A stretch of DNA of 58,200 nt, from positions 1 to 58,200 of the forward strand of contig DATKNH010000016.1 of the NCBI GenBank assembly GCA_035541455.1, given 5' to 3'. The notes beneath the pieces were generated by a model, which searched no databases, was not told where the DNA came from, and worked only from the letters and a program-made list of their open reading frames with translations. Positions 4,002 through 14,968 of the stretch are shown here, piece by piece. Position 1 is the first letter of the stretch; each line of letters begins with the position of its first letter. Source of the stretch: Syntrophorhabdales bacterium. Its GTDB lineage: Bacteria; Desulfobacterota; Syntrophorhabdia; Syntrophorhabdales; WCHB1-27. A program made the translations under genes and the position numbers.

Positions 4002-5288
4002 TTACGATTTTGGGATCGGGAAGAGCATCTTCCCCGTCGTCGGGATCTTGGTGGCCTCTTTGTTGTAAACAACCTGGAGTTCCCAGGGCCACTTCTTACC
4101 TTTTACCCATTGTCCCCCCACGAGAGGGGTGAGGGAAAAATTCTTTTCATTAAATTTGATTGGGCCGACCACGGTGTCCAGATTCGTGCTGGCCAGGGCA
4201 TCCCTGATCTTTTTCTTGTCCAGGGAACCTGCCCGCTTCAGCACATCAGCGGCAATCTCAAAGGCCGCATAATCAAAACCCATTGGTTGCGTCCATTGCC
4301 TCTTTGTCTTCGCGGTCCAGGAATCGGCCAGTTGCTGGCACGTTGCCCCTGTCAGGGATGATTTGAATGGATGCAGGGGCGTCCACCAGACCTCTGTTGT
4401 CAGGCCATTGGGTAAATTCCCGCCAAGAGCTTCGACGGCGGCCGGGAAAAGAAGCGCCTTTCCGACTGTTGCAAACTTGGGAACAAAGCCCTGCTGGTAA
4501 CACTGCCGCCAGCACGTGGCCCAATCGGGCGGAACCGGTACGCCGGTAAGAATATCAACCTTTTCTTTTTTCCATGTGCTTATAAAAGCGCCGAAATCCT
4601 GCATGCCATAGGGAAACCTTCCCACATCCACCACGCGATATCCCATGGAACTCAACTTTTTCCCAAACTCCTGAGCCCACACTGTGCCGTCAGGATCATT
4701 CGGCCAGAAGCCTCCCACCACCTTCGTTGTCTGGTCTGCGAATTGATTCCACATGCCTGTGAAGACGGTGATGATCTGGTCGAGGTTCCAAAAGTAGTGA
4801 AAGGTCCATTTGTACGGACCGCCTGTTAACCACGGCTCGATGGGCGCCACTGAGGAGATGCACGGGACCTCATACCTTTCGCACGTGGCCCCTACCGGGT
4901 TGACGGTATCCGGAGTGTGCAGCACCACCATGAGATCAACCTTATCCTGTAGGATCAGCTTTGAAGCCACCTCGGCAGCCTTGGTGGGATTGCTTTCGGT
5001 GTCCACGGCCTTGATCCTGACAGGCAGTTTCCTGTTCAGCTCCTTAATGAAGATGCCGCCATCTTTGTTGATTTCTGCCGTAGCACGATCGTCCGCCCAC
5101 GCAGAGGTTTCCCCAAAAGGCGCAATGGGCCCGGTGGCCGGCGTAGGGTGGCCGATCAGAATGTGATCCCTGGCTGCCCGAGAAGGTCTGGATAAGAACG
5201 AACTACCTGTAGCGGCGATGCCTGCAGCCCCAACCAGCTTGATAAAGTTTCGCCTCGTCACGCCATCCTGTCTGTCCTCTTTTTCCAT
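4002..5288 (-). CDS. Tat-exported ABC transporter substrate-binding protein (HAAT/amide type)
   Basis: Periplasmic binding protein of the importer, 428 residues. The start at MEKEDRQDG is chosen over a 30-residue longer frame because a strong ribosome site (ggggagga) stands 5 bp upstream. A twin-arginine signal also follows directly (TRRNFIKLVGAAG, Arg12-Arg13, then a hydrophobic stretch and an alanine site near residue 39). The mature part starts ILIGHPTPATGPIAPFGETS, typical of the Peripla_BP_6 family. It is the promoter-proximal gene of the liv-like operon. Tat export rather than Sec is common for this family in deltaproteobacteria. Ligand unknown; context suggests an aromatic or organic acid. 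Confidence 0.92.
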   Translation of the reverse strand: MEKEDRQDGVTRRNFIKLVGAAGIAATGSSFLSRPSRAARDHILIGHPTPATGPIAPFGETSAWADDRATAEINKDGGIFIKELNRKLPVRIKAVDTESNPTKAAEVASKLILQDKVDLMVVLHTPDTVNPVGATCERYEVPCISSVAPIEPWLTGGPYKWTFHYFWNLDQIITVFTGMWNQFADQTTKVVGGFWPNDPDGTVWAQEFGKKLSSMGYRVVDVGRFPYGMQDFGAFISTWKKEKVDILTGVPVPPDWATCWRQCYQQGFVPKFATVGKALLFPAAVEALGGNLPNGLTTEVWWTPLHPFKSSLTGATCQQLADSWTAKTKRQWTQPMGFDYAAFEIAADVLKRAGSLDKKKIRDALASTNLDTVVGPIKFNEKNFSLTPLVGGQWVKGKKWPWELQVVYNKEATKIPTTGKMLFPIPKS

Positions 5289-5406
5289 AGTTCCTCCCCT
5301 TTTTGGTTTTAGCCCTCTTCGTCGGAGACCTGTTTCGTATTGGCAGCAACAACTCCTCTTGTTATCATAGCGTTGCAATTAATGAAACAAGTATCCGTTT
5401 AGTGAA

Positions 5407-5437
5407 ATTGTAACAGAAAGTGCACTTTGATTGTCAA
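5407..5437 (-). promoter_or_regulatory. Candidate sigma-70 promoter of the transporter operon
   Basis: On the minus strand a perfect -35 TTGACA (5432-5437) is followed after 19 bp by TACAAT (5407-5412, 5 of 6 matches). It lies about 120 bp upstream of the binding-protein ATG. The 19-bp spacing is long, so basal activity may be low. The stretch 5289-5608 has no gene; it holds this promoter, the opposing IclR promoter and the operator. Confidence 0.45.
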
Positions 5438-5506
5438 GAAAAAAATGTACGTGAAAAAATACACTATGTATGCCTGGGCTGTGGACTCAGCGTTTTCATT
5501 TTTTTC

Positions 5507-5537
5507 TTGACAAGGGAACGGGTATGTTTGCTAAAAT
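5507..5537 (+). promoter_or_regulatory. Candidate sigma-70 promoter of the IclR-family gene
   Basis: TTGACA (5507-5512) and TAAAAT (5532-5537, 5 of 6) are separated by 19 bp, about 70 bp before the IclR start codon. The -10 box touches the repeated operator at 5536-5575, which fits negative autoregulation. Confidence 0.45.
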
Positions 5538-5575
5538 TTCGATAAATGAATATGTATTTCGATAAATGAAATACA
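5536..5575. promoter_or_regulatory. Palindromic and repeated operator, probably for the IclR regulator
   Basis: The 15-mer ATTTCGATAAATGAA occurs twice in tandem (5536-5550 and 5556-5570), 20 bp apart, so both copies lie on one helix face. The second copy sits in a perfect inverted repeat, TGTATTTC-N7-GAAATACA (5553-5560 and 5568-5575). IclR-type regulators bind such palindromes, often in pairs, near their own promoter. The site lies between the regulator and the divergent transporter operon. Confidence 0.65.
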
Positions 5576-5608
5576 TGACCACTCAATAAGCTGGAAGGTT
5601 GAACTGCC

Positions 5609-6406
5609 ATGCTTTACAACAACAAGTCTCTTGAAAGGTCACTCCAGATTCTGAGCGCGTTTAACGCTGAACAGCCGAAGTTTAGCCTCGCCGAGCTGTC
5701 CGAGGCTGTACATCTACCGAAGGCTACGGTGCTGCGGCTCTGCTCGACCCTCGTACACTACGACTTCCTCATGCTCAACAAAGAGACGAGACAATACTCA
5801 CTCGGACTTAAGCTCTTCGAGCTGGGCAGTGTCGTCTTCGCCTCGTTTTCACTCAGGAGGATTGCCGCTCCTTATCTGATTAATCTGCAGGCAAAACTGG
5901 GCAAGACGGTTTTTCTGGGAATACTCCAGGAAGGACAACTTGTCTATCTGGACAAAAAGGAGAACCCTTTAAACCTTATCAGATTTGGGTCACAAATAGG
6001 AACCAGGCGACCGCCTTTCTTCGGCATGCTGGGAAATGTCCTCATGGCGCACCTCTCGAGCGAAAAGGTGACTGAACTCTTGAAAAGGCATCCTCTCTCG
6101 CCACTCACGAAGAAGTCAATCACCAACGAGAGACGTTACAAGGAGAGGCTGGCCGTTATCCGATCGGAAGGGTATTGCGTGGATGAGGGAGAGGTTATCG
6201 AGGGCGTCACCGGTGTTGGTGCGCCAATCCGTGATTCTTCGAAAGAGGTGGTAGCAGCGGTTGGGGTCAGTTTTGTTTCCTCCTCGGAAGACGAGAAAGG
6301 CGTCGACAAGGTTATACGGGAGACTCGAAAAACAGCCGCCCTCATTTCCAAAGCCATGGGTTATAGAGACAATGGAGCTGGTCGTAATCCTGGCCTGTTC
6401 ACCTGA
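5609..6406 (+). CDS. IclR-family transcriptional regulator
   Basis: DNA-binding regulator of 265 residues, the normal IclR length. The N-terminal winged helix-turn-helix covers about residues 8-70 (SLERSLQILSAF, FSLAELSEAVHLPKATVLRLCSTL). The C-terminal effector domain covers about 80-250 and contains the family segments GILQEGQLVYLDK and GYCVDEGEVIEGVTGVGAPI. IclR proteins commonly control aromatic and organic acid catabolism and usually sense a pathway acid. It is divergent from the importer and upstream of the amidohydrolase cluster, so both are plausible targets. Start supported by agctggaagg upstream. Confidence 0.93.
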   Translation: MLYNNKSLERSLQILSAFNAEQPKFSLAELSEAVHLPKATVLRLCSTLVHYDFLMLNKETRQYSLGLKLFELGSVVFASFSLRRIAAPYLINLQAKLGKTVFLGILQEGQLVYLDKKENPLNLIRFGSQIGTRRPPFFGMLGNVLMAHLSSEKVTELLKRHPLSPLTKKSITNERRYKERLAVIRSEGYCVDEGEVIEGVTGVGAPIRDSSKEVVAAVGVSFVSSSEDEKGVDKVIRETRKTAALISKAMGYRDNGAGRNPGLFT

Positions 6407-6569
6407 AGAAATGGGTTGGGAATCTTGCAAAGGAGGGCTGGTGGTGAATGGGAGGAAAAAGGGGGTGATGGAAACAAGAGGCTCGCAAATAAATGCGGGC
6501 ACATACATTGCGTTTCCGCAAGCTTTGTAGACAATCGATTAGCAAAAACAAATAAGAGAGGAGGAATTC

Positions 6570-7601
6570 ATGGGACAAAGAACGGTCGATGTACATTGTC
6601 ATTGGTATCCGATGGAGTATATGGAGTATCTCATCTCAAGAGGCAAGGACAAAACGCCTTACTGCATCCATGACAGCGGCACGCATTACCGCATGTATTT
6701 TAAGGGCGTGCCCGTGGCGCATATTGACAGGGCCGGCCATTATGATTTGGAGGCCAGAATACGTGACCTTGATGCAGCCGGCCTCGATACGCAGCTTCTG
6801 ACTGTTACTATCCCCGGGCCGGAATCTCTTGAAAGGGATGCGGGTATTTACTGGGCCAAGAAGTGTAATGACCATCTTGCTGAGGCCGCGAGGAAATATC
6901 CGGGACGGTTCTATCACATGGCATCCCTGCCGTACCAGGATCCGGACGCAGCATGTGAAGAATTGGAGCGCTGCAAGAAAATGGGTGCTGTGGGCATCCA
7001 GATGTTCTCGAACGTGAATGGGGAGCCTGTTTTTCTGGAAAAGTTTCATCCCATCTACGAGATTGCCAATAAGTATGACATGCCTTTTCTGGTTCACCCT
7101 GCCGTTCCTCTCACAGCATCCGTCATGGATATGATGCGGCTGCCCTACCAGCTCTGGGGCTATACGCTAGACACGAGCATGGCGGTTATGAGCCTGATCT
7201 TCCAGGGTGTGTTTGCGAAATACCCAAAGCTCACCCTTGTCCATGGGCATCTGGGCGGCACGGTCCCCTATTTCGTGCGCCGGATACAGGATGCATATAA
7301 AGGCTATGGCAAGGAGTGGGGCATCGAGCTTAAGGAGCCGCCGGACGTTACGTACAAGAACAGGGTCTATCCTGATACCACCTCCTTTTACAAGCCGGCG
7401 ATGAAATGCTGCCTCGAGTGGGTCGGTCCGCAGCAAATGATCATCGGGACAGACTATGCGCACCGGGTCGGTGATCCGGAAGGCGCTATCAGGGCGGTCA
7501 AGGAAGTGGGAGCTGAATATGGTCTTAAGTCGGATGAAGTAGATATGATTCTGGGTAAGAACGCAGAGAGGATCTTCCATCTGCCGCCTATGAAGAAATA
7601 G
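6570..7601 (+). CDS. ACMSD-type amidohydrolase, probable metal-dependent decarboxylase or hydrolase
   Basis: Amidohydrolase-2 family protein, 343 residues, of the group that includes aminocarboxymuconate-semialdehyde, gamma-resorcylate and 5-carboxyvanillate decarboxylases. The metal ligands are visible: His9 and His11 (DVHCH), His176 (FLVHP), His225 and His227 (VHGHLGG) and Asp295 (IGTDYAH). The start has an excellent ribosome site (gaggaggaattc). The family mostly performs non-oxidative decarboxylation of aromatic or muconate-type acids through a bound Zn or Mn. A ring-cleavage or lactone hydrolase role cannot be excluded. It heads a plus-strand catabolic series; the gap to the next gene is 228 bp, with no gene in it. 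Confidence 0.88.
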   Translation: MGQRTVDVHCHWYPMEYMEYLISRGKDKTPYCIHDSGTHYRMYFKGVPVAHIDRAGHYDLEARIRDLDAAGLDTQLLTVTIPGPESLERDAGIYWAKKCNDHLAEAARKYPGRFYHMASLPYQDPDAACEELERCKKMGAVGIQMFSNVNGEPVFLEKFHPIYEIANKYDMPFLVHPAVPLTASVMDMMRLPYQLWGYTLDTSMAVMSLIFQGVFAKYPKLTLVHGHLGGTVPYFVRRIQDAYKGYGKEWGIELKEPPDVTYKNRVYPDTTSFYKPAMKCCLEWVGPQQMIIGTDYAHRVGDPEGAIRAVKEVGAEYGLKSDEVDMILGKNAERIFHLPPMKK

Positions 7602-7829
7602 ACAGAGAGTGTTACGAAGACGCGTGCCCGGTGCGGATGGCTCTCCTTCAACCATCCCACCGGGATCGTGTGCTTCACAGACGGCCCAGATCCCGTGAGG
7701 CAGTGATGCCTTCGATCGCGGGGCACCGAAACAGGCAACGAAGAGGGGTACTCGTGTCCAGCACGAGTTTATGCAGGAGGGCAGCCTGGCAGATCCGTAA
7801 AAAGAGAGGGAATGAATAAGGAGGTTACC

Positions 7830-9548
7830 ATGTCCGACGAATGTAGCCTTGACGCCCATGATCGCAGCATTTCAAGTTTGAGGACGTTGCGTATGCCTGA
7901 GGACGGGGATATCTTCTGGTTCCGGGATGATCTCCACCAGCCCTACCCCATCTGTCCTTTGGGCATGACCACCATCCAGAAGCACCATGCCTGGGGCTAC
8001 CACGTGGGTGCCGAGGTCACCAGGCTCCCTCCCTCCAAGGGTGGCCACGTAAAGATCTACAAGGGAAGAACCATGCTCGGGTTCGAAGCCCTTACCGACC
8101 CGGCCGAAGTCGCGCAACGGGCAGTCGAGTTTACGAAGCTCCTCGACTACGCGAGGCCCAACTGGGATACCTTCTACAATGGCTATATCGATGAGGTGAA
8201 ACAGGGCCTTATCTATATGGCATCAGTCCATGACGGGTTTGCCGATACCGACCTCCACCAGGCCCTTCGCAGGAGTGAAGCCATCAACCGGAGGAACTGG
8301 GAGATCCACTTCATCCTCATGTATGTGGCAGATATGCTCTACTTCGGGTTTGAAGCCTTCTGCAAAGAACGCGGCCTTGCCGAAAAAGAGTTCGCGGTCA
8401 TGCTGAAAGGCCTTGACACCATGGCCACGAGGACCGATACCGGCGTCTTTGAACTGGCCAAGCTTGCCGACACCTTGGGCATTGCCGATACTATCCTCTC
8501 CTCGGACGCCAAGGCCCTCCTCCCGGTCCTCGAGAAGGAACCAAAGGCTGTGCCCTGGCTCAGCGCCCTGCATGCCTTCCTTGATGCCTACGGTCACCGG
8601 ATCACCGCCGGCCACCTGGATATCATCTTCCCCACCTGGATCGAGGAGCCCTCCCCTGTGCTGGATACGGTGAAGACCTACATCCCCAAAGTCCGCCAGG
8701 GCTGGGACATCAAGACTGAACGCCATGCTGCCCTCAAAGAAGCAGACCAGGCAGCCCAAGCCTTTATGGCGACCCTCACCCCCTCGGATCAGGACGCATT
8801 CACCAAGCAGCTCGCCATCGGCAGGAAGATCTACCGGTTTCAGGAGGACCACGGGTTCTATATCGACGGTGCCTCCACCGCAGGCCTCCACGATGTGGCC
8901 ATGGCACTAGGCAGAAGGCTCACGCACTATGGCCTTTTTTCTGCTCCTGATGATGTTTTCTTCTTGAACTACTACGAGCTGGAAGAGACCCTTGCCCTGC
9001 TTGCCGAGAACAGAATCCCTGCCCTCTACCACTTCCACCGGCTCATACCTCCTCTTGTCAAAGAGCGGAGAAAGGGATGGGAATTGACTGCTACCCTCAA
9101 GGAAGCGCCTCTTACCCTGGGTAAGATCCCCGAGAAAGCAGAAGACCCTATTCTTGTCAAGGTCTTCGGCATGGTGGACGAGGTGCTCAAGGCCGGCAAG
9201 GTGGACGAGCTTCAGATGATGGATACCTTTGAAGGTTACCCCGGCTCGCCGGGTGTCGCCGAAGGGCTCGCCCGGGTGGTCACGAGCTTCGAAGCCTTCC
9301 CCACCCTCCAACCCGGGGAGATCCTCGTTTGCCCCTATACCGCCACTGCCTGGACCCCCCTCTTTCCCAAGATCAAGGCGGTCGTGACTGATACCGGCGG
9401 CATGCTCACCCACGCGGCCATCACCGCACGGGAATACCGCATCCCTGCGGTGGTGGGTACCTGGCGGGCAACCCGGTCGATCAAGGATGGGGACTACATA
9501 CGGGTTGATGGGAACAGAGGGGTTGTGGAAGTGATGAAAAAAGCCTAA
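7830..9548 (+). CDS. PEP-utilising-enzyme mobile (phosphohistidine) domain protein, phenylphosphate synthase alpha-like
   Basis: Protein of 572 residues whose C-terminal ~80 residues are the swivelling phosphohistidine domain of PEP synthase/PPDK enzymes. The motif TDTGGMLTHAAITARE carries the phosphorylatable histidine, and the domain ends IPAVVG then the DGD/G region. The upstream part (EDHGFYID, GRRL, PDDVFFL) resembles the central part of phenylphosphate synthase alpha and rifampin phosphotransferase-like proteins. There is no ATP-grasp nucleotide-binding domain, in this chain or next to it, so a partner must phosphorylate it if it acts as a phosphotransferase. The start was set at MSDECS because aaggaggt stands 4 bp upstream. 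Third codon positions are strikingly C-rich compared with neighbours. A role in activating a phenolic substrate is inference. Confidence 0.8.
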   Translation: MSDECSLDAHDRSISSLRTLRMPEDGDIFWFRDDLHQPYPICPLGMTTIQKHHAWGYHVGAEVTRLPPSKGGHVKIYKGRTMLGFEALTDPAEVAQRAVEFTKLLDYARPNWDTFYNGYIDEVKQGLIYMASVHDGFADTDLHQALRRSEAINRRNWEIHFILMYVADMLYFGFEAFCKERGLAEKEFAVMLKGLDTMATRTDTGVFELAKLADTLGIADTILSSDAKALLPVLEKEPKAVPWLSALHAFLDAYGHRITAGHLDIIFPTWIEEPSPVLDTVKTYIPKVRQGWDIKTERHAALKEADQAAQAFMATLTPSDQDAFTKQLAIGRKIYRFQEDHGFYIDGASTAGLHDVAMALGRRLTHYGLFSAPDDVFFLNYYELEETLALLAENRIPALYHFHRLIPPLVKERRKGWELTATLKEAPLTLGKIPEKAEDPILVKVFGMVDEVLKAGKVDELQMMDTFEGYPGSPGVAEGLARVVTSFEAFPTLQPGEILVCPYTATAWTPLFPKIKAVVTDTGGMLTHAAITAREYRIPAVVGTWRATRSIKDGDYIRVDGNRGVVEVMKKA

Positions 9549-9581
9549 AATGTCTGTGTCTGTTTCGCAGTGCAAGTAAGG

Positions 9582-9636
9582 GGAGGCGAGCACTCCGGAA
9601 ACAGGTTGCTGATCCGAGGGCATCGCCTCCTCTTTT
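9582..9636 (+). terminator. Possible intrinsic terminator
   Basis: GGAGGCGA (9582-9589) pairs with TCGCCTCC (9623-9630), followed by TCTTTT. The 33-base loop is long, so this is only a weak candidate for ending the phosphohistidine-protein transcript. Confidence 0.3.
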
Positions 9637-9690
9637 CTCCGGTTTTTCAGGGACGACCAAGAGGAGATACTACTTTAGAGAAGGAGAAGA

Positions 9691-10878
9691 ATGATGAAGT
9701 ACGAGAAGCTTTTTCAACCGGTGACGATGCGAGGAGTGGTTTTTCCCAACCGGCTGCACCGCACGTCGATGGTCTCCGGATTGACAACGGAAAATGGTGA
9801 TGTCACAGAGGATTTGATCACGCGATATCAGAGAGAGGCAAAAGGCGGTGTCGGGGCCATTGTTGTCGAGGCTGCAGTTATCATCCCGTCCAAGAGTCCT
9901 TACAACCTGCGAATCAGCGATGATAGCTTTGTGCCGGGCCTGACAAAGCTCGTCAAGGCCATTCGGGAAGTGAACAAGGAAACGAAAATAGGCGTGCAGA
10001 TCATGCAGCACCTCAAGCTGGCCAGGTCAGGCTGGAGGCAGAAAGTGGAGGATTTCAAGCCTGAAGAGCTGCCCAAAATAGTCGAAGACCACGTTGCGGC
10101 GGCGAAGCGCGCACTCACGGCGGGCTTTGATTTTATAGAGGTCCACATGGCCCATGCCTATGTGCTCTCCTCTTTTCTTTCACGCTCCAACAAGCGCACA
10201 GACGGGTATGGTTCGACTTTACAGAACAGAATGAAACTGCCCATTGAAGTATTTCAAGCCGTGCGGAAGCTCGTCGGCGAGAACTACCCATTAGGAGTCA
10301 GGATAAACGGAGAAGATTTTGTTGTACAGGGAAACACCTCGGCCCAGAGCGGACGCATTGCTGCAAAATTCGCTGAACTCGGCGCTGATTACATCAGCGT
10401 TTCGGCAGGAAGCCGCTTTGAAGATGCCCTTACCCCTGCGGAAGGATACCCGCCGGATCCTATGTCTGGTTACAGCGGTCATCGCATGAGCCCATGGTTC
10501 TGGTGGCCGGACGGGTGCCACGTCTATCTGTCGGAGGCGATCAGGAAGAGTGTGCGTGGGGCAGGATTTCAGACGCCGGTCATCATAGCCGGCAAGATAC
10601 GCGAGCCTGAGCACGCTGAAGAGATACTACGCGAGGAGAAGGCCGACATCATAGGACTTTGCAGGGCTCTTCTCTGCGACCCTGACTGGCCGATCAAGGC
10701 CAAAGAAGGAAGGGATAAAGAGATCGTACGCTGCGTAGCCTGCAACTGGTGCCTGGAGGCTGACTCGCGCTACGAAAAAGTGAACTGCGATCGGTGGCCG
10801 AAGCCGAGCATCGTTGCACCAGAGCCGTTCCTGCCGAGCACGGCAGGCGCCGGCACGTTCAAGAAAGAATACTTGTAA
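9691..10878 (+). CDS. Short Old Yellow Enzyme-family NAD(P)H:flavin oxidoreductase with Fe-S motif
   Basis: FMN-dependent TIM-barrel reductase, 395 residues. It begins with the OYE signature (LFQPVTMRGVVFPNRLHRTSM) and has the EVHMAHAYVLSSFLSRSNKRTDGYG segment in the barrel. After the barrel, a cysteine cluster C348-x2-C351-x2-C354-x11-C366 resembles the [4Fe-4S] site of 2,4-dienoyl-CoA reductase and trimethylamine dehydrogenase. The FAD/NAD-binding C-terminal half of those enzymes is absent. Electrons must therefore come from a separate donor. Likely reaction: reduction of an alpha,beta-unsaturated carbonyl or dienoyl intermediate in the catabolic pathway. The start has gaaggag 5 bp upstream. 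Confidence 0.85.
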   Translation: MMKYEKLFQPVTMRGVVFPNRLHRTSMVSGLTTENGDVTEDLITRYQREAKGGVGAIVVEAAVIIPSKSPYNLRISDDSFVPGLTKLVKAIREVNKETKIGVQIMQHLKLARSGWRQKVEDFKPEELPKIVEDHVAAAKRALTAGFDFIEVHMAHAYVLSSFLSRSNKRTDGYGSTLQNRMKLPIEVFQAVRKLVGENYPLGVRINGEDFVVQGNTSAQSGRIAAKFAELGADYISVSAGSRFEDALTPAEGYPPDPMSGYSGHRMSPWFWWPDGCHVYLSEAIRKSVRGAGFQTPVIIAGKIREPEHAEEILREEKADIIGLCRALLCDPDWPIKAKEGRDKEIVRCVACNWCLEADSRYEKVNCDRWPKPSIVAPEPFLPSTAGAGTFKKEYL

Positions 10879-11049
10879 GAACAGGGCCCAAGGGGCCACG
10901 ATTTCCGGGGCCTAACTGAAACAGTTAGATTGACAGTCACTATTGGCATTTGAACCCTCGTTGCCCTGAAGCGTCGGGCCCTCGAAACCTGGAACCCTGA
11001 TTGGAGCAAAATAGGGCTAGCAAGCAACACCCCGCGAAAGGAGATAAGC

Positions 11050-12699
11050 ATGAATCCTGCTGACATTCCAAACCACAACGAAAAAGATGCCGCACTCTAC
11101 ACGAAGTACCGCTGGTGGATGGAGTTGCCACTGGGAGATCTCGTGGACAGGGCTGCAGATGTATTTCCTCGAAAAGAAGCAGTCGTAGATGACAGAGTGC
11201 GCATCACCTACAGTGCGCTTCGGGAGGGCGTAGATAGACTGGCCGTGGCTCTCATGAAACTCGGGATCGACAAGGGCGATGCAGTGCTGCTACAGCTTCC
11301 CAACTGGGCAGAGTATGTGTACGCATATTTTGCTCTGCAGAAGATCGGTGGAATTCCCGTTGTTCTGATCTCCGGGTATAAACAGCTGGAGGTCGGCCAT
11401 CTTGGGCTTCTCACCCAGGCAAAGGCGTGGATCGTGCCGAAGGTTTATCGCAAGATGGAGTACACGACGTTTATAGGTGACGTCAGGGAGAAGAATCCGC
11501 AACTGGCTCACGTGATCTCGGTGCGCTCTGACAAGGAAGGAGCCCCCTTCACGGCAAGTCTGGAGAAACTGATGGCGCAACCGATAAGCCCGGCCGACAG
11601 AGAGGCGCTTGCGGCCCGGAGGCCTGACCCGGGCGCGGTCGCTCACATCATTCCTTCCGGCGGCACAACCGGGCTTCCGAAGGGCATTCCCAGAACGCAC
11701 AACGACTACCTCTGCAACGTGGAATATATGCACAAGGGATGGGAGATGAATACCGCGGATACGGCATTGATCGTCGTTCCTGTCGGTCACAATCTTGCGG
11801 TGCTCAACGTCGTTGGTTCGGTAATGTTCGGATTCAAGCTTGTTCTTCTTGACTCCACGCGGCCTGAAGATATCTGCGATGCTATTCAGACAGAAAAAGT
11901 GACGTACACGCCAATGGTGCCGAGCCTGACCAGAAGGATTCTCGAATCGGAGAAATTCGGCAGCTACGATTTGCACTCCCTGAAGAAAGTGTTGGGAGGC
12001 GGTGAACCGAGCACACCAGAGCTCGTGAGGGAGGTTTACAAAAAAATAGGTTGTACATACATAAACGAATTCGGCATGACGGAGGGGCTTGTCACCCGTA
12101 CAGCGCTTGATGACGCCGTAGAAGTGATCTGCAACACCGTGGGAAGGCCGACCTGTCCTTACAACGACGTGAAGATTCTCGACGGCCACGGTAAGGAGTT
12201 GCCAAGAAACGTAGACGGCGAAATGGTCGTCAAAGGGCCAACGATCTTCGCCGGTTACGTCAAGAATCCGGAAGAAAACAAGAAGAGTTTCACTGCCGAT
12301 GGTTATTTCAAGACGGGCGACATGGCACGGATCGACGATCAGGGAAACCTCAAGATCACGGGCCGCATAAAGGATCTCATCATCAGGGGAGGTGAGAACG
12401 TGAGCCCCGGGCAGGTAGAGGAACTGGTGGAGACGCATCCCTATGTCGCGGATGTCGCAGTTATCGGCATGCCCGATAAGGCCCTGGGCGAGAGAGTCTG
12501 CGCCTACGTGCGTTCCGTAACCGGTCAGACGCTGACCGAGAAGGAACTCCAGGCATTCATGGAGAGCAAGGGTGCCTCCAAGCTGCTTATTCCTGAGAAA
12601 TTCGTTTTTGTTGACACGCTGCCCATGACTGAAGCGGGGAAGCACGACAAGAAAGCGTTGCGCGAGGACATAAAACGGAGAATAGCAGCCGGAGAGTAG
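11050..12699 (+). CDS. AMP-forming aryl/acyl-CoA ligase, 2,3-dihydroxybenzoate-AMP ligase (EntE)-like
   Basis: ANL-superfamily adenylate-forming enzyme, 549 residues. The phosphate loop is SGGTTG (residues 203-208) followed by LPKGIPRTHNDY. That is the pattern of EntE/DhbE 2,3-dihydroxybenzoate ligases rather than acetyl- or fatty-acyl ligases. Later motifs are NEFGMTEGL, GYFKTGDMARID, GRIKDLIIRGGENVSP, and the C-terminal lysine (Lys531 in EAGKHDKK). No carrier-protein or NRPS gene is nearby. The product is therefore more probably a CoA thioester of an aromatic acid, which would commit it to the beta-oxidation-like genes around. Strong ribosome site aaaggag before the ATG. Confidence 0.9.
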   Translation: MNPADIPNHNEKDAALYTKYRWWMELPLGDLVDRAADVFPRKEAVVDDRVRITYSALREGVDRLAVALMKLGIDKGDAVLLQLPNWAEYVYAYFALQKIGGIPVVLISGYKQLEVGHLGLLTQAKAWIVPKVYRKMEYTTFIGDVREKNPQLAHVISVRSDKEGAPFTASLEKLMAQPISPADREALAARRPDPGAVAHIIPSGGTTGLPKGIPRTHNDYLCNVEYMHKGWEMNTADTALIVVPVGHNLAVLNVVGSVMFGFKLVLLDSTRPEDICDAIQTEKVTYTPMVPSLTRRILESEKFGSYDLHSLKKVLGGGEPSTPELVREVYKKIGCTYINEFGMTEGLVTRTALDDAVEVICNTVGRPTCPYNDVKILDGHGKELPRNVDGEMVVKGPTIFAGYVKNPEENKKSFTADGYFKTGDMARIDDQGNLKITGRIKDLIIRGGENVSPGQVEELVETHPYVADVAVIGMPDKALGERVCAYVRSVTGQTLTEKELQAFMESKGASKLLIPEKFVFVDTLPMTEAGKHDKKALREDIKRRIAAGE

Positions 12700-12790: not shown

Positions 12791-14542
12791 ATGTCAGGGC
12801 TGGCGCTCAAGAAGGGTAAATTATCATCCGCACTGCGGAAGAGATTAGATGAATATTACGCAAAGTGTACCGGTGTTGGCCCGTCATATATGGATGCGAA
12901 ATGGCGACACTGGGCAGAGAGCCCAGACGTAATCGTATATCAGGTAAAGAACAGAGACAGCCTTGAGGGATGGATCGTGTACAACACGACCGCCAGCGCT
13001 GTGCTTGATATCGTCGCGGACATGGAGCAGCAGCCGACGCACGTGCTCTCAAACCTGATGGATGTGCTTGTGCGAGCTCAAACGCTTGTTTCCGCGGAAG
13101 TGCTCGTGTCTGACCAAGAGAAGTACGGGTGGCTCGTAGAGTATGGATTCCGTCCAACACGAACCCTCAGGACCGATGGATTCTCCTCTTTCAGAATGGA
13201 TCTGAGCATACGCGTGCTCGCGGAAAAATTGAAAGGCCAGAAGCCGGTGAAGGCCTATCGAAAAAAGGAGAAGGTAGCTATCCAGCAGGTACCGCCTTCC
13301 CAGTGCTATGAAGAAATCAAAGCCGGACTGCAAGGTCTTCTGGACAAGCTTGGCGGCTTGAGGAAATTTGTCGCACCGGGGCAGCGGGTGGTCATCAAGC
13401 CCAACCTCGTGGCCGATCATGGGCTGATGAACGGTATCTACAAAGGTGGAGTTGTGACGGATGTACGGCTTGTCCGCGCGCTTATCGAACTTCTTCTTCC
13501 TGTTGCCGGCAAAGTGATCATTGCCGAAGGCTCTTCCATTAACCGCAGCGCGACTATGAAGATGTTTAACCTGTACGGATACGACAAATTAATAGACCTG
13601 GACCCGAAAAAGGTGAGTATCGTCGATCTGAACACTGATGACGCTGTCGCAAAAGCAGTGCCGGGCGGCAAGCGGATGCTCTCGAGAAGGGTGCCCGTCA
13701 CCCTTGAGCAGGCGGATGTTATTATCAATATCCCGGTAATGAAGCTCCATTTCGCAGCGGTTGTCTCCCTCGCGGTCAAAAGCCTTCAGGGAACCATGCC
13801 TCCCCTTGAAAAATATATGAGCCATTTCTTTGGCCTGTGGCAGAACCTGATCAACATCCATCACCTGGTGAAACCAAGCCTGCACATCATAGACGGGCTT
13901 ATTGCGCAGGAGGATTTCGGGCCGGTCTCAGGCATAGCCAAGCCGATGAACCTGTTGATCGCAGGGGCAAACCCCGTGGCTGTGGACGCCGTTACGATGC
14001 GCATTATGGGACTGGAGCCCTTAACTTCGCCACCGGTCTGGTTGGCCTACATGCAGGGCTTGGGGCCTGTGGAGCCGGAAAAGATAGAAACGGTGGGACC
14101 CCCGATCGATGGCCTGGTGAGCCCGTTCAAACAGCCGGAAATAAATCTTGCCAGCGGTCGGGATTTTGTTATCCATGCAGGCACGGCCTGTCCCGGTTGC
14201 GCGGGATACTTGCACTTTGCCGTTGCGAAACTGAGACGGCCTGACCCTGCTGACCCTTCGAGGCTGCTCATCGATCGTCCGTTCGAGCGCAAGGTGAATA
14301 TCTACCTGGGTCCGACCACAGAGGATGGGATGAACCCGGATGAAACAAATGTCTTCCTCGGCATTTGCCAGCAGCACCATGCGCAGGACGGCAAGCATTT
14401 ACCCGGGTGTCCGCCGCACGCGGAAGTGCTGCTCAATGGTATATTCAGCCTTTTTCCCGATGTAGAGCGGCCCAAGTATGCGGACAAGACCGAGGAGGCG
14501 AAGCTGGAGGAGATGCTAAAGGAAGTGCTCGCCTTACTCTAG
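12791..14542 (+). CDS. DUF362 protein with N-terminal GNAT-like region and Cys-rich tail
   Basis: Protein of 583 residues in three parts. Residues about 1-145 look like a degenerate N-acetyltransferase fold (alternating strands, EKYGWLVEYGFRPTRTLRTDGFSSF). Residues about 160-390 are DUF362 (VVIKPNLV, VIIAEGSS, NIPVMKLH, NPVAVDAVTMRIMG). The tail has paired cysteines near residues 466-469 (CPGC) and further Cys/His at about 523-540 (ICQQHH, LPGCPPH) that could bind metal. DUF362 proteins are often annotated as Fe-S associated and their biochemistry is largely unknown. It follows the aryl-CoA ligase by 91 bp, so it is probably in the same transcript. No reaction is assigned. Confidence 0.82.
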   Translation: MSGLALKKGKLSSALRKRLDEYYAKCTGVGPSYMDAKWRHWAESPDVIVYQVKNRDSLEGWIVYNTTASAVLDIVADMEQQPTHVLSNLMDVLVRAQTLVSAEVLVSDQEKYGWLVEYGFRPTRTLRTDGFSSFRMDLSIRVLAEKLKGQKPVKAYRKKEKVAIQQVPPSQCYEEIKAGLQGLLDKLGGLRKFVAPGQRVVIKPNLVADHGLMNGIYKGGVVTDVRLVRALIELLLPVAGKVIIAEGSSINRSATMKMFNLYGYDKLIDLDPKKVSIVDLNTDDAVAKAVPGGKRMLSRRVPVTLEQADVIINIPVMKLHFAAVVSLAVKSLQGTMPPLEKYMSHFFGLWQNLINIHHLVKPSLHIIDGLIAQEDFGPVSGIAKPMNLLIAGANPVAVDAVTMRIMGLEPLTSPPVWLAYMQGLGPVEPEKIETVGPPIDGLVSPFKQPEINLASGRDFVIHAGTACPGCAGYLHFAVAKLRRPDPADPSRLLIDRPFERKVNIYLGPTTEDGMNPDETNVFLGICQQHHAQDGKHLPGCPPHAEVLLNGIFSLFPDVERPKYADKTEEAKLEEMLKEVLALL

Positions 14543-14546
14543 GCGC

Positions 14547-14681
14547 AAATTCTGATGTCTAATTTCTAAATTCTAAACAATTTTCAAACATCGAATGCTC
14601 AAACCAGACCGGACCCCGATTACTTCTTGGAGGTCGATCATTTGGTTTTGTTTAGAGCTTAGACATTAGGATTTCGAATTT
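14547..14681. repeat. AT-rich imperfect inverted repeat between convergent genes
   Basis: The left arm 14547-14580 and the reverse complement of the right arm 14648-14681 agree at 26 of 34 positions by eye. Both begin AAATTC and end TCTAAACAA. The arms are much richer in A+T than the flanks and enclose a 67-base loop. It sits between the convergent DUF362 and tautomerase genes and could act as a two-way transcription stop or be a small mobile palindrome. Confidence 0.6.
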
Positions 14682-14692
14682 CTCCTCTTGTT

Positions 14693-14968
14693 TCAGGTTA
14701 TGCAGAGGTCGGCCGGGAAGCACTCGGATGGTTCCTGGGGCGCGCATTCCTCTCCTTCTTTCTGAGCTTTTTGCCTTTTTCTTCTCACGGTGAGAGATTC
14801 GCCCGCCACGCCCCAATTATCGGTATCCACCTCGTCAATGACCACTGAGGTCATCTGAGGATCTTTTCCCAGGACATCAAAGAGTAATTTTGTCACTCCC
14901 TGGATCAAGGCCGCCTTCTGCTCGGCCGTAACGCCGTCTTTTGTTACTTTGATGTTGACATACGGCAT
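14693..14968 (-). CDS. 4-oxalocrotonate tautomerase-family protein with extended tail
   Basis: Small tautomerase-fold protein, 91 residues. Removal of the initiator Met exposes Pro1 (PYVNIKVTKDGVTAEQKAALIQG), the catalytic base of the family. The downstream core (VLGKDPQMTSVVIDEVDTDNWGVAG) matches 4-OT-like proteins of about 65-75 residues. The last ~20 residues (three Cys, acidic) are an unusual extension. Likely role: enol-keto tautomerisation of a dicarboxylic or ring-fission-type intermediate. A strong ggagg site precedes the ATG. It is on the opposite strand from the catabolic series and is separated from the molybdopterin gene by a terminator, so it is probably its own unit. Confidence 0.88.
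   Translation of the reverse strand: MPYVNIKVTKDGVTAEQKAALIQGVTKLLFDVLGKDPQMTSVVIDEVDTDNWGVAGESLTVRRKRQKAQKEGEECAPQEPSECFPADLCIT

Follow-up and report, generated by a model that had tools for sequence, protein, structure and literature searches.

A phosphohistidine subunit of a putative two-component dikinase in a Syntrophorhabdales bacterium and its probable ATP-grasp partner on another contig

The gene at positions 7830-9548 (plus strand) of the window, which is the entire 58.2-kb contig C16 of genome G000 (97% complete, 2.7% contaminated), probably encodes the acceptor (H/alpha) subunit of an ATP-dependent dikinase that acts on small molecules and consists of two components, with the ATP-grasp subunit supplied in trans from a second contig, C116. 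The interaction of the subunits in trans, the phosphoryl chemistry, which is taken from PpsAB and HpeHI, and the class of substrate are inferred.

The frame at 7812-9548 is open without interruption and the gene is intact. Translation most likely begins at ATG 7830, giving 572 amino acids, because a Shine-Dalgarno sequence, AAGGAGG (7818-7824), precedes this codon by five bases. Residue numbers given here are counted in the 578-residue frame that begins at 7812, so that His534 is His528 when counted from ATG 7830. A scan of 6300-10000 for promoters and terminators returned no more than shuffled sequence yields, and an Rfam scan of the window returned no matches at gathering scores. The only Pfam match in the protein is to the PEP-utilising mobile domain PF00391 (residues 500-570, E up to 1), which lies within a swivel domain of approximately residues 470-578. 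As originally predicted, this C-terminal domain carries a swivelling phosphohistidine motif, TDTGGMLTHAAITARE, at residues 526-541; it contains TDTGGMLTH, which agrees with the catalytic-histidine pattern T/SxxGGxxxH (PMC12167813), and alignment to the swivel motif of rifampin phosphotransferase (RPH) marks His534 (codon CAC, 9411-9413) as the predicted phospho-acceptor. Loss of this histidine in close homologues was sought and none was found, the residue being kept in 26 of 26 aligned sequences. An AlphaFold2 model built from the same number of sequences (pLDDT 87.7) superposes over residues 1-576 on residues 307-867 of Listeria RPH (5fbt; Z 26.6, 492 aligned, 3.9 A), and RPH is also the top Foldseek match, as 5hv1. 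That range covers all of RPH except the ATP-grasp domain, so the protein is whole, with an RPH-like substrate domain followed by a C-terminal swivel domain. The two proteins are alike in fold across their middle and swivel domains, but RPH is a single chain with its own N-terminal ATP-grasp domain, which the window protein lacks. For this reason, and because the rifampin phosphotransferase family NF041857 gives 126 of 999 bits, we reject an identity with that enzyme and imply no role concerning rifampin. The best NCBIfam matches are to the PRK08296 type, a group of approximately 600 residues, at 307 bits (cut-off 578).

The original prediction also held that neither the gene nor its neighbours encode a nucleotide-binding domain, and for the contig this is borne out: a profile search of the whole genome found no ATP-grasp domain (PF01326) on C16, a tblastn search of the window with two close ATP-grasp proteins as queries gave a best E of 0.14, and no trace of a former ATP-grasp, HAD or 225-residue gene was found in the gaps at 6407-6569, 7602-7829 and 9549-9690. 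The further claim that the partner is absent fails, as "not nearby" is not the same as "absent". When the genome was searched for a PpsB-like ATP-grasp protein, PF01326 was matched on C13, C116, C160, C73 and C135 only. The gene on C116 (57252-58208) encodes an intact protein of 318 residues (295 bits; a TGA flagged there is its own stop codon) and is followed by an amidohydrolase 82% identical to that of the window (6570-7601) and by an acceptor 86% identical to the window protein. It is the only close ATP-grasp gene that the genome search found in G000; the ATP-grasp proteins of C160 and C13 are 31-32% identical to it, and each adjoins its own acceptor gene, whose product is 29-31% identical to the window acceptor. 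The genome thus holds two near-identical acceptors and one close, non-adjacent ATP-grasp gene, and the product of the latter therefore probably serves both acceptors and is, on this comparison, the probable partner of the one in the window. The genes of C16 and C116 may not be co-expressed, which would count against a shared partner. That the two contigs come from one genome, and that C116 is not a stray contig, is very likely because both bear the same dispersed repeat, which is present on further contigs too. In the window it is an intergenic element at 14530-14700 with complementary ends, with TTCTAAACAA near one end and TTGTTTAGA near the other. It has 20 full or partial matches in the genome, itself included (E <=0.001), among them C116:64463-64604, and looks like a dispersed palindromic repeat with no Rfam match.

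The window gene lies in a cluster of plus-strand genes headed by an IclR-family regulator (5609-6406; PF01614; PcaR/PcaU/PobR-like, with TIGR02431 below its cut-off), which occupies the same place on contig C221 of G001, a genome of the same genus. Next comes an Amidohydro_2 protein (6570-7601; PF04909), a putative metal-dependent decarboxylase or hydrolase whose nearest solved structures by sequence are the 5-carboxyvanillate decarboxylase LigW and ACMSD. Downstream of the acceptor are an FMN ene-reductase of the old yellow enzyme family (9691-10878; PF00724), in the same position at locus L015 and on G001 C256, and an AMP-forming acyl- or aryl-CoA ligase (11050-12699; PF00501 and PF13193), which follows the ene-reductase also in L015, L016 (there split over two ORFs) and L041. 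Locus L015, from G002 of the same family, has the order IclR regulator, enoyl-CoA hydratase, membrane protein (these two named by eye), ATP-grasp, amidohydrolase, HAD-like protein, 221-residue protein, acceptor, ene-reductase and CoA ligase. A close ATP-grasp gene is present in 16 of the 29 relative loci, all 16 of which have a relative of the amidohydrolase; several of the other 13 are incomplete stretches. The window retains the IclR, amidohydrolase, acceptor, ene-reductase and ligase genes of such a cassette, and C116 the ATP-grasp, amidohydrolase and acceptor genes. The HAD and 225-residue genes of related cassettes are in neither copy in G000; a 53% HAD relative on C159 forms a pair with a gene for 161 residues, beside a second IclR gene, xanthine-dehydrogenase-like genes, a ligase and an ene-reductase (neighbours named by eye). 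This family of 161-225 residues, which has no Pfam match, stands behind the HAD-like gene in several cassettes (for example L014, 5526-6203, and L093, 9115-9600). Elsewhere an inositol-monophosphatase-like gene, named by eye, lies near the acceptor and no HAD gene was seen (L022, 7533-8333; L021, 6759-7541; L026, 2395-3177); it is perhaps an alternative phosphatase. In G001, C221 is colinear with window 4008-7601 through the IclR and amidohydrolase genes, and C256 is colinear with window 8760-12113 through the acceptor, ene-reductase and ligase genes, the stretch between them falling across contig ends and outside the comparison; the only close ATP-grasp gene found by a search of that genome is on C372. 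Relatives of the acceptor occur in records named Deltaproteobacteria, Pelotomaculum and other Peptococcaceae, Chloroflexi, Acidobacteria, Actinobacteria and alphaproteobacteria. No amidohydrolase-linked dikinase cassette was found in print among open-licence PMC papers.

The two-component small-molecule dikinases have been recognised as a subfamily since 2025, and PpsAB, CreHI and HpeHI are phenol kinases with this split layout (PMC12167813). For comparison, references were taken from plasmids: PpsA from the ppc cluster of Azoarcus KH32C, a Rhodococcus CreH-like protein and a second one, and a Rhizobium HpeH-like protein, the CreH-like and HpeH-like labels being assigned from gene context. The likeness to phenylphosphate synthase that was originally drawn stands as to general kind, in that PpsAB also divides the ATP-grasp and histidine functions between subunits and its histidine subunit has approximately 600 residues, but the window protein is not a subunit of that enzyme. 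It is 28% identical to Azoarcus PpsA and 28-30% to PpsA, the CreH-like and the HpeH-like proteins taken together, whereas those three kinds share 43-45% with one another, and a tree that places PpsA with the window clade, away from the remaining references, is rejected (p-AU 2.7e-6). The organism's PpsA is likely the C13 homologue, which is 57% identical to PpsA and groups with it (100/98). The genome has 15 UbiD-family matches (PF01977), four of them on C13; none is on C16 or C116, and with no PF01326 on C16 the window has neither a ppsB gene nor a UbiD-type carboxylase gene. CreHI, the 4-cresol kinase, is likewise a two-component dikinase, and the Rhodococcus CreH-like cluster also has an IclR regulator, but the window protein is 28% identical to the CreH-like protein and none of the seven window proteins typed by Pfam is a P450. 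HpeH, too, joins a substrate domain to an RPH-like swivel domain with a conserved histidine, its ATP-grasp domain being on a separate protein (PMC12167813). The window protein is 30% identical to the HpeH-like protein, whose gene in Rhizobium adjoins biotin carboxylase and HAD genes, whereas the window gene has decarboxylase, ene-reductase and ligase neighbours and a non-adjacent ATP-grasp gene. In the ATP-grasp tree the C116 clade is separate from PpsB and the CreI-like, HpeI-like, C13 and C160 proteins (100/100). A tree with the window acceptor clade as one group (13 rows) is not rejected (p-AU 0.55) but is not established either, with the C160 acceptor as a long branch of unsure placement. 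Judged by sequence, the window acceptor is a separate branch, kinase-like but not PpsA, that is linked to a LigW/ACMSD-like decarboxylase. The C160 genes (L044, 7604-10438) form a further, very divergent acceptor and ATP-grasp pair, in which the acceptor is 23-26% identical to PpsA and to the CreH-like and HpeH-like proteins. Genes for two FAD-dependent phytoene-dehydrogenase-like proteins and an SDR (by eye) precede it; by its sequence this pair is another uncharacterised two-component dikinase. We also considered and rejected a link to the "Magic" cluster of anaerobic benzene degradation: PMC13101534 contains neither "amidohydrolase" nor "dikinase" and names phenylphosphate synthase once, in the introduction, and passages of PMC13416013 concern other genes.

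In HpeHI and PpsAB the ATP-grasp subunit presents ATP, whose beta-phosphate is attacked by the histidine with loss of the gamma-phosphate, and a phenol is then phosphorylated by the phosphohistidine (PMC12167813). By the same route, His534 would take the beta-phosphate of ATP from the C116 subunit, and the swivel domain would then move to the helical substrate domain and phosphorylate a phenolic or enolic catabolite, which the neighbouring decarboxylase, ene-reductase and CoA ligase would help to process. These neighbours suggest a carboxylate of phenolic or enolic type as the substrate. No stable complex forms between HpeH and HpeI (PMC12167813), and this suits a partner supplied in trans. 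In Desulfatiglans anilini, carboxylase subunits from different clusters are combined (PMC7500099). In the known two-component dikinases that we examined, both subunits lie within one gene cluster.

The distance between acceptor and ATP-grasp genes was surveyed in 26 genomes, namely G000-G002 and 23 reached through loci of relatives (six other loci lie in genomes already counted). These 23 entered the survey because each contains a relative of the window acceptor, and they come without completeness values; most survey genomes are MAGs, and G001 is 79% complete. An acceptor was counted as close at >=45% identity and 380 bits, and an ATP-grasp gene as close at >=280 bits; the two were taken as linked when within 15 kb on the same contig. 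Among 31 close acceptors, 18 had a close ATP-grasp gene within 15 kb and 13 had none. For nine of these 13, a close ATP-grasp gene was found in another part of the genome; for the other four (two in G061, one each in G081 and G082) none was found in the genome. Five of the 13 (G001 C256, G067, G068, G081 and G082) start <=0.4 kb from, or across, a contig end, and linkage may therefore be hidden there. Two close acceptors occur with one close ATP-grasp gene in G000, G001, G060 and G062. The 8 kb around one ATP-grasp gene in each of G064 and G066 hold amidohydrolase, HAD-like and approximately 210-residue genes and no acceptor. The count leaves out two acceptors of 43-44% identity: that on G063 C111, with no ATP-grasp gene in the 18 kb read, and that on G068 C617 (44% to the window acceptor), which shares a cassette with the ATP-grasp gene of its genome. 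One locus of G066 (C40:39561-42276) has an ATP-grasp protein that shares 56% identity with that of C116, beside an acceptor that shares just 31% with that of the window, a pairing that hints at an exchange of partners.

The window gene gives a pN/pS of 0.12 against the C116 copy and of 0.17 against the partial copy on G001 C256, and its swivel domain gives 0.08 and 0.14, respectively; synonymous sites are near saturation and these ratios are rough. They indicate purifying selection on the gene. Of the three thirds of the protein, the swivel domain is the most conserved in the comparison with C116 (91%), while in that with G001 C372 the N-terminal third leads (89% vs 86%). This pattern bears on the possibility that the acceptor needs no ATP-grasp subunit and works as a transphosphorylase that uses one aryl (or enol) phosphate to phosphorylate a different hydroxyl compound. 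Such activity has precedent, as PpsA alone exchanges phenol with phenylphosphate (PMC6114531) and HpeH by itself phosphorylates acetovanillone with 4-phosphoacetophenone as the donor (PMC12167813), and the lack of an ATP-grasp gene in the window cluster fits it. We nevertheless regard it as unlikely, as the domain that would also dock on an ATP-grasp subunit is the one so strongly conserved, a close ATP-grasp gene is present in the genome, and the rate for HpeH alone is 2.7 nmol/min/mg (PMC12167813). It is similarly improbable that the window gene is a redundant paralogue left by duplication of the cluster, kept in sequence but contributing little while the C116 copy phosphorylates for both clusters. 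The union of all three genes on C116 favours this, as does the lack in the window of the ATP-grasp, HAD and 225-residue genes that L015 has, but the open frame, the retention of all motif residues, the low pN/pS of the whole gene, and the matching gene order in those parts of G001 that its contigs cover argue against it. Very unlikely, finally, is a function outside the kinases, as a ligase of two components or some other condensing enzyme that works by phosphate activation, like PigC and RedH, which share the swivel domain. Matches to RedH (132 of 1350 bits) and PigC (112 of 1300), far below their cut-offs, speak for it; against it are the better PRK08296 score and the split layout, which is that of the phenol kinases PpsAB, CreHI and HpeHI (PMC12167813).

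The pyrimidine-rich third codon positions of the gene were confirmed. At four-fold sites its C content is 0.536 (mean 0.334, sd 0.047), first of 109 ORFs, and its C+T content is 0.708 (0.530, sd 0.046), the comparison being with ORFs of >=200 residues from seven stretches of its own genome, taken mechanically as the longest non-overlapping frames, some of which may not be genes. The hint of transfer that had been drawn from this bias is not upheld: C content is 0.53 and 0.56 in the two G001 copies, 0.39 in C116 and 0.41 in G002, and protein trees place the gene inside the genus. Distant transfer is therefore not supported as the source; the bias is, from these copies, common to this acceptor gene in the genus except for C116, and a near relative may have supplied the allele. 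Nor is high expression supported as the cause, pooled plus-strand ORFs of a ribosomal-protein region having a C content of 0.31 (these ORFs are also mechanical, and one of 112 residues had 0.55).

Protein trees of the two cassette genes differ. For the amidohydrolase, C116 groups with G001 C372 (100/100) and the window with G001 C221 (85/85), and holding the window copy with C116 is rejected (p-AU 2e-59). For the acceptor, the two G001 copies pair (100/99), as do those of the window and C116 (88/88; 94/90 in a wider set), and trees that pair the orthologues instead are rejected (p-AU 9.6e-5 and 1.9e-5), the G001 C256 copy spanning 46% of the alignment columns. DNA trees of the acceptor support the G001 pair and do not resolve the window and C116 copies, and synonymous divergence from the window copy is lower for the G001 copies (pS 0.59) than for C116 (0.73). 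We read this as homogenisation of the acceptor copies within a genome, clear only in G001 and possible in G000. Such homogenisation would suit a shared ATP-grasp partner.

More tentatively, and with somewhat more doubt than belief, we propose a hub-and-spoke arrangement in which one ATP-grasp subunit would charge several interchangeable acceptors that differ in substrate or regulation and lie in separate operons, gene conversion keeping them alike to fit the one donor while their decarboxylase neighbours diverge. The sugar phosphotransferase system, with its shared donor, is a parallel. Rather than a defective orphan, the window gene probably encodes one of a pair of subunits that share a single partner. 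A branch tied to a LigW/ACMSD-like decarboxylase, whose acceptors often lie apart from the ATP-grasp gene and outnumber it in four of 26 genomes, would extend the known kind of two-component dikinase and suggest a shareable donor. For annotation, an acceptor gene without a neighbouring ATP-grasp gene need not mean a broken system.
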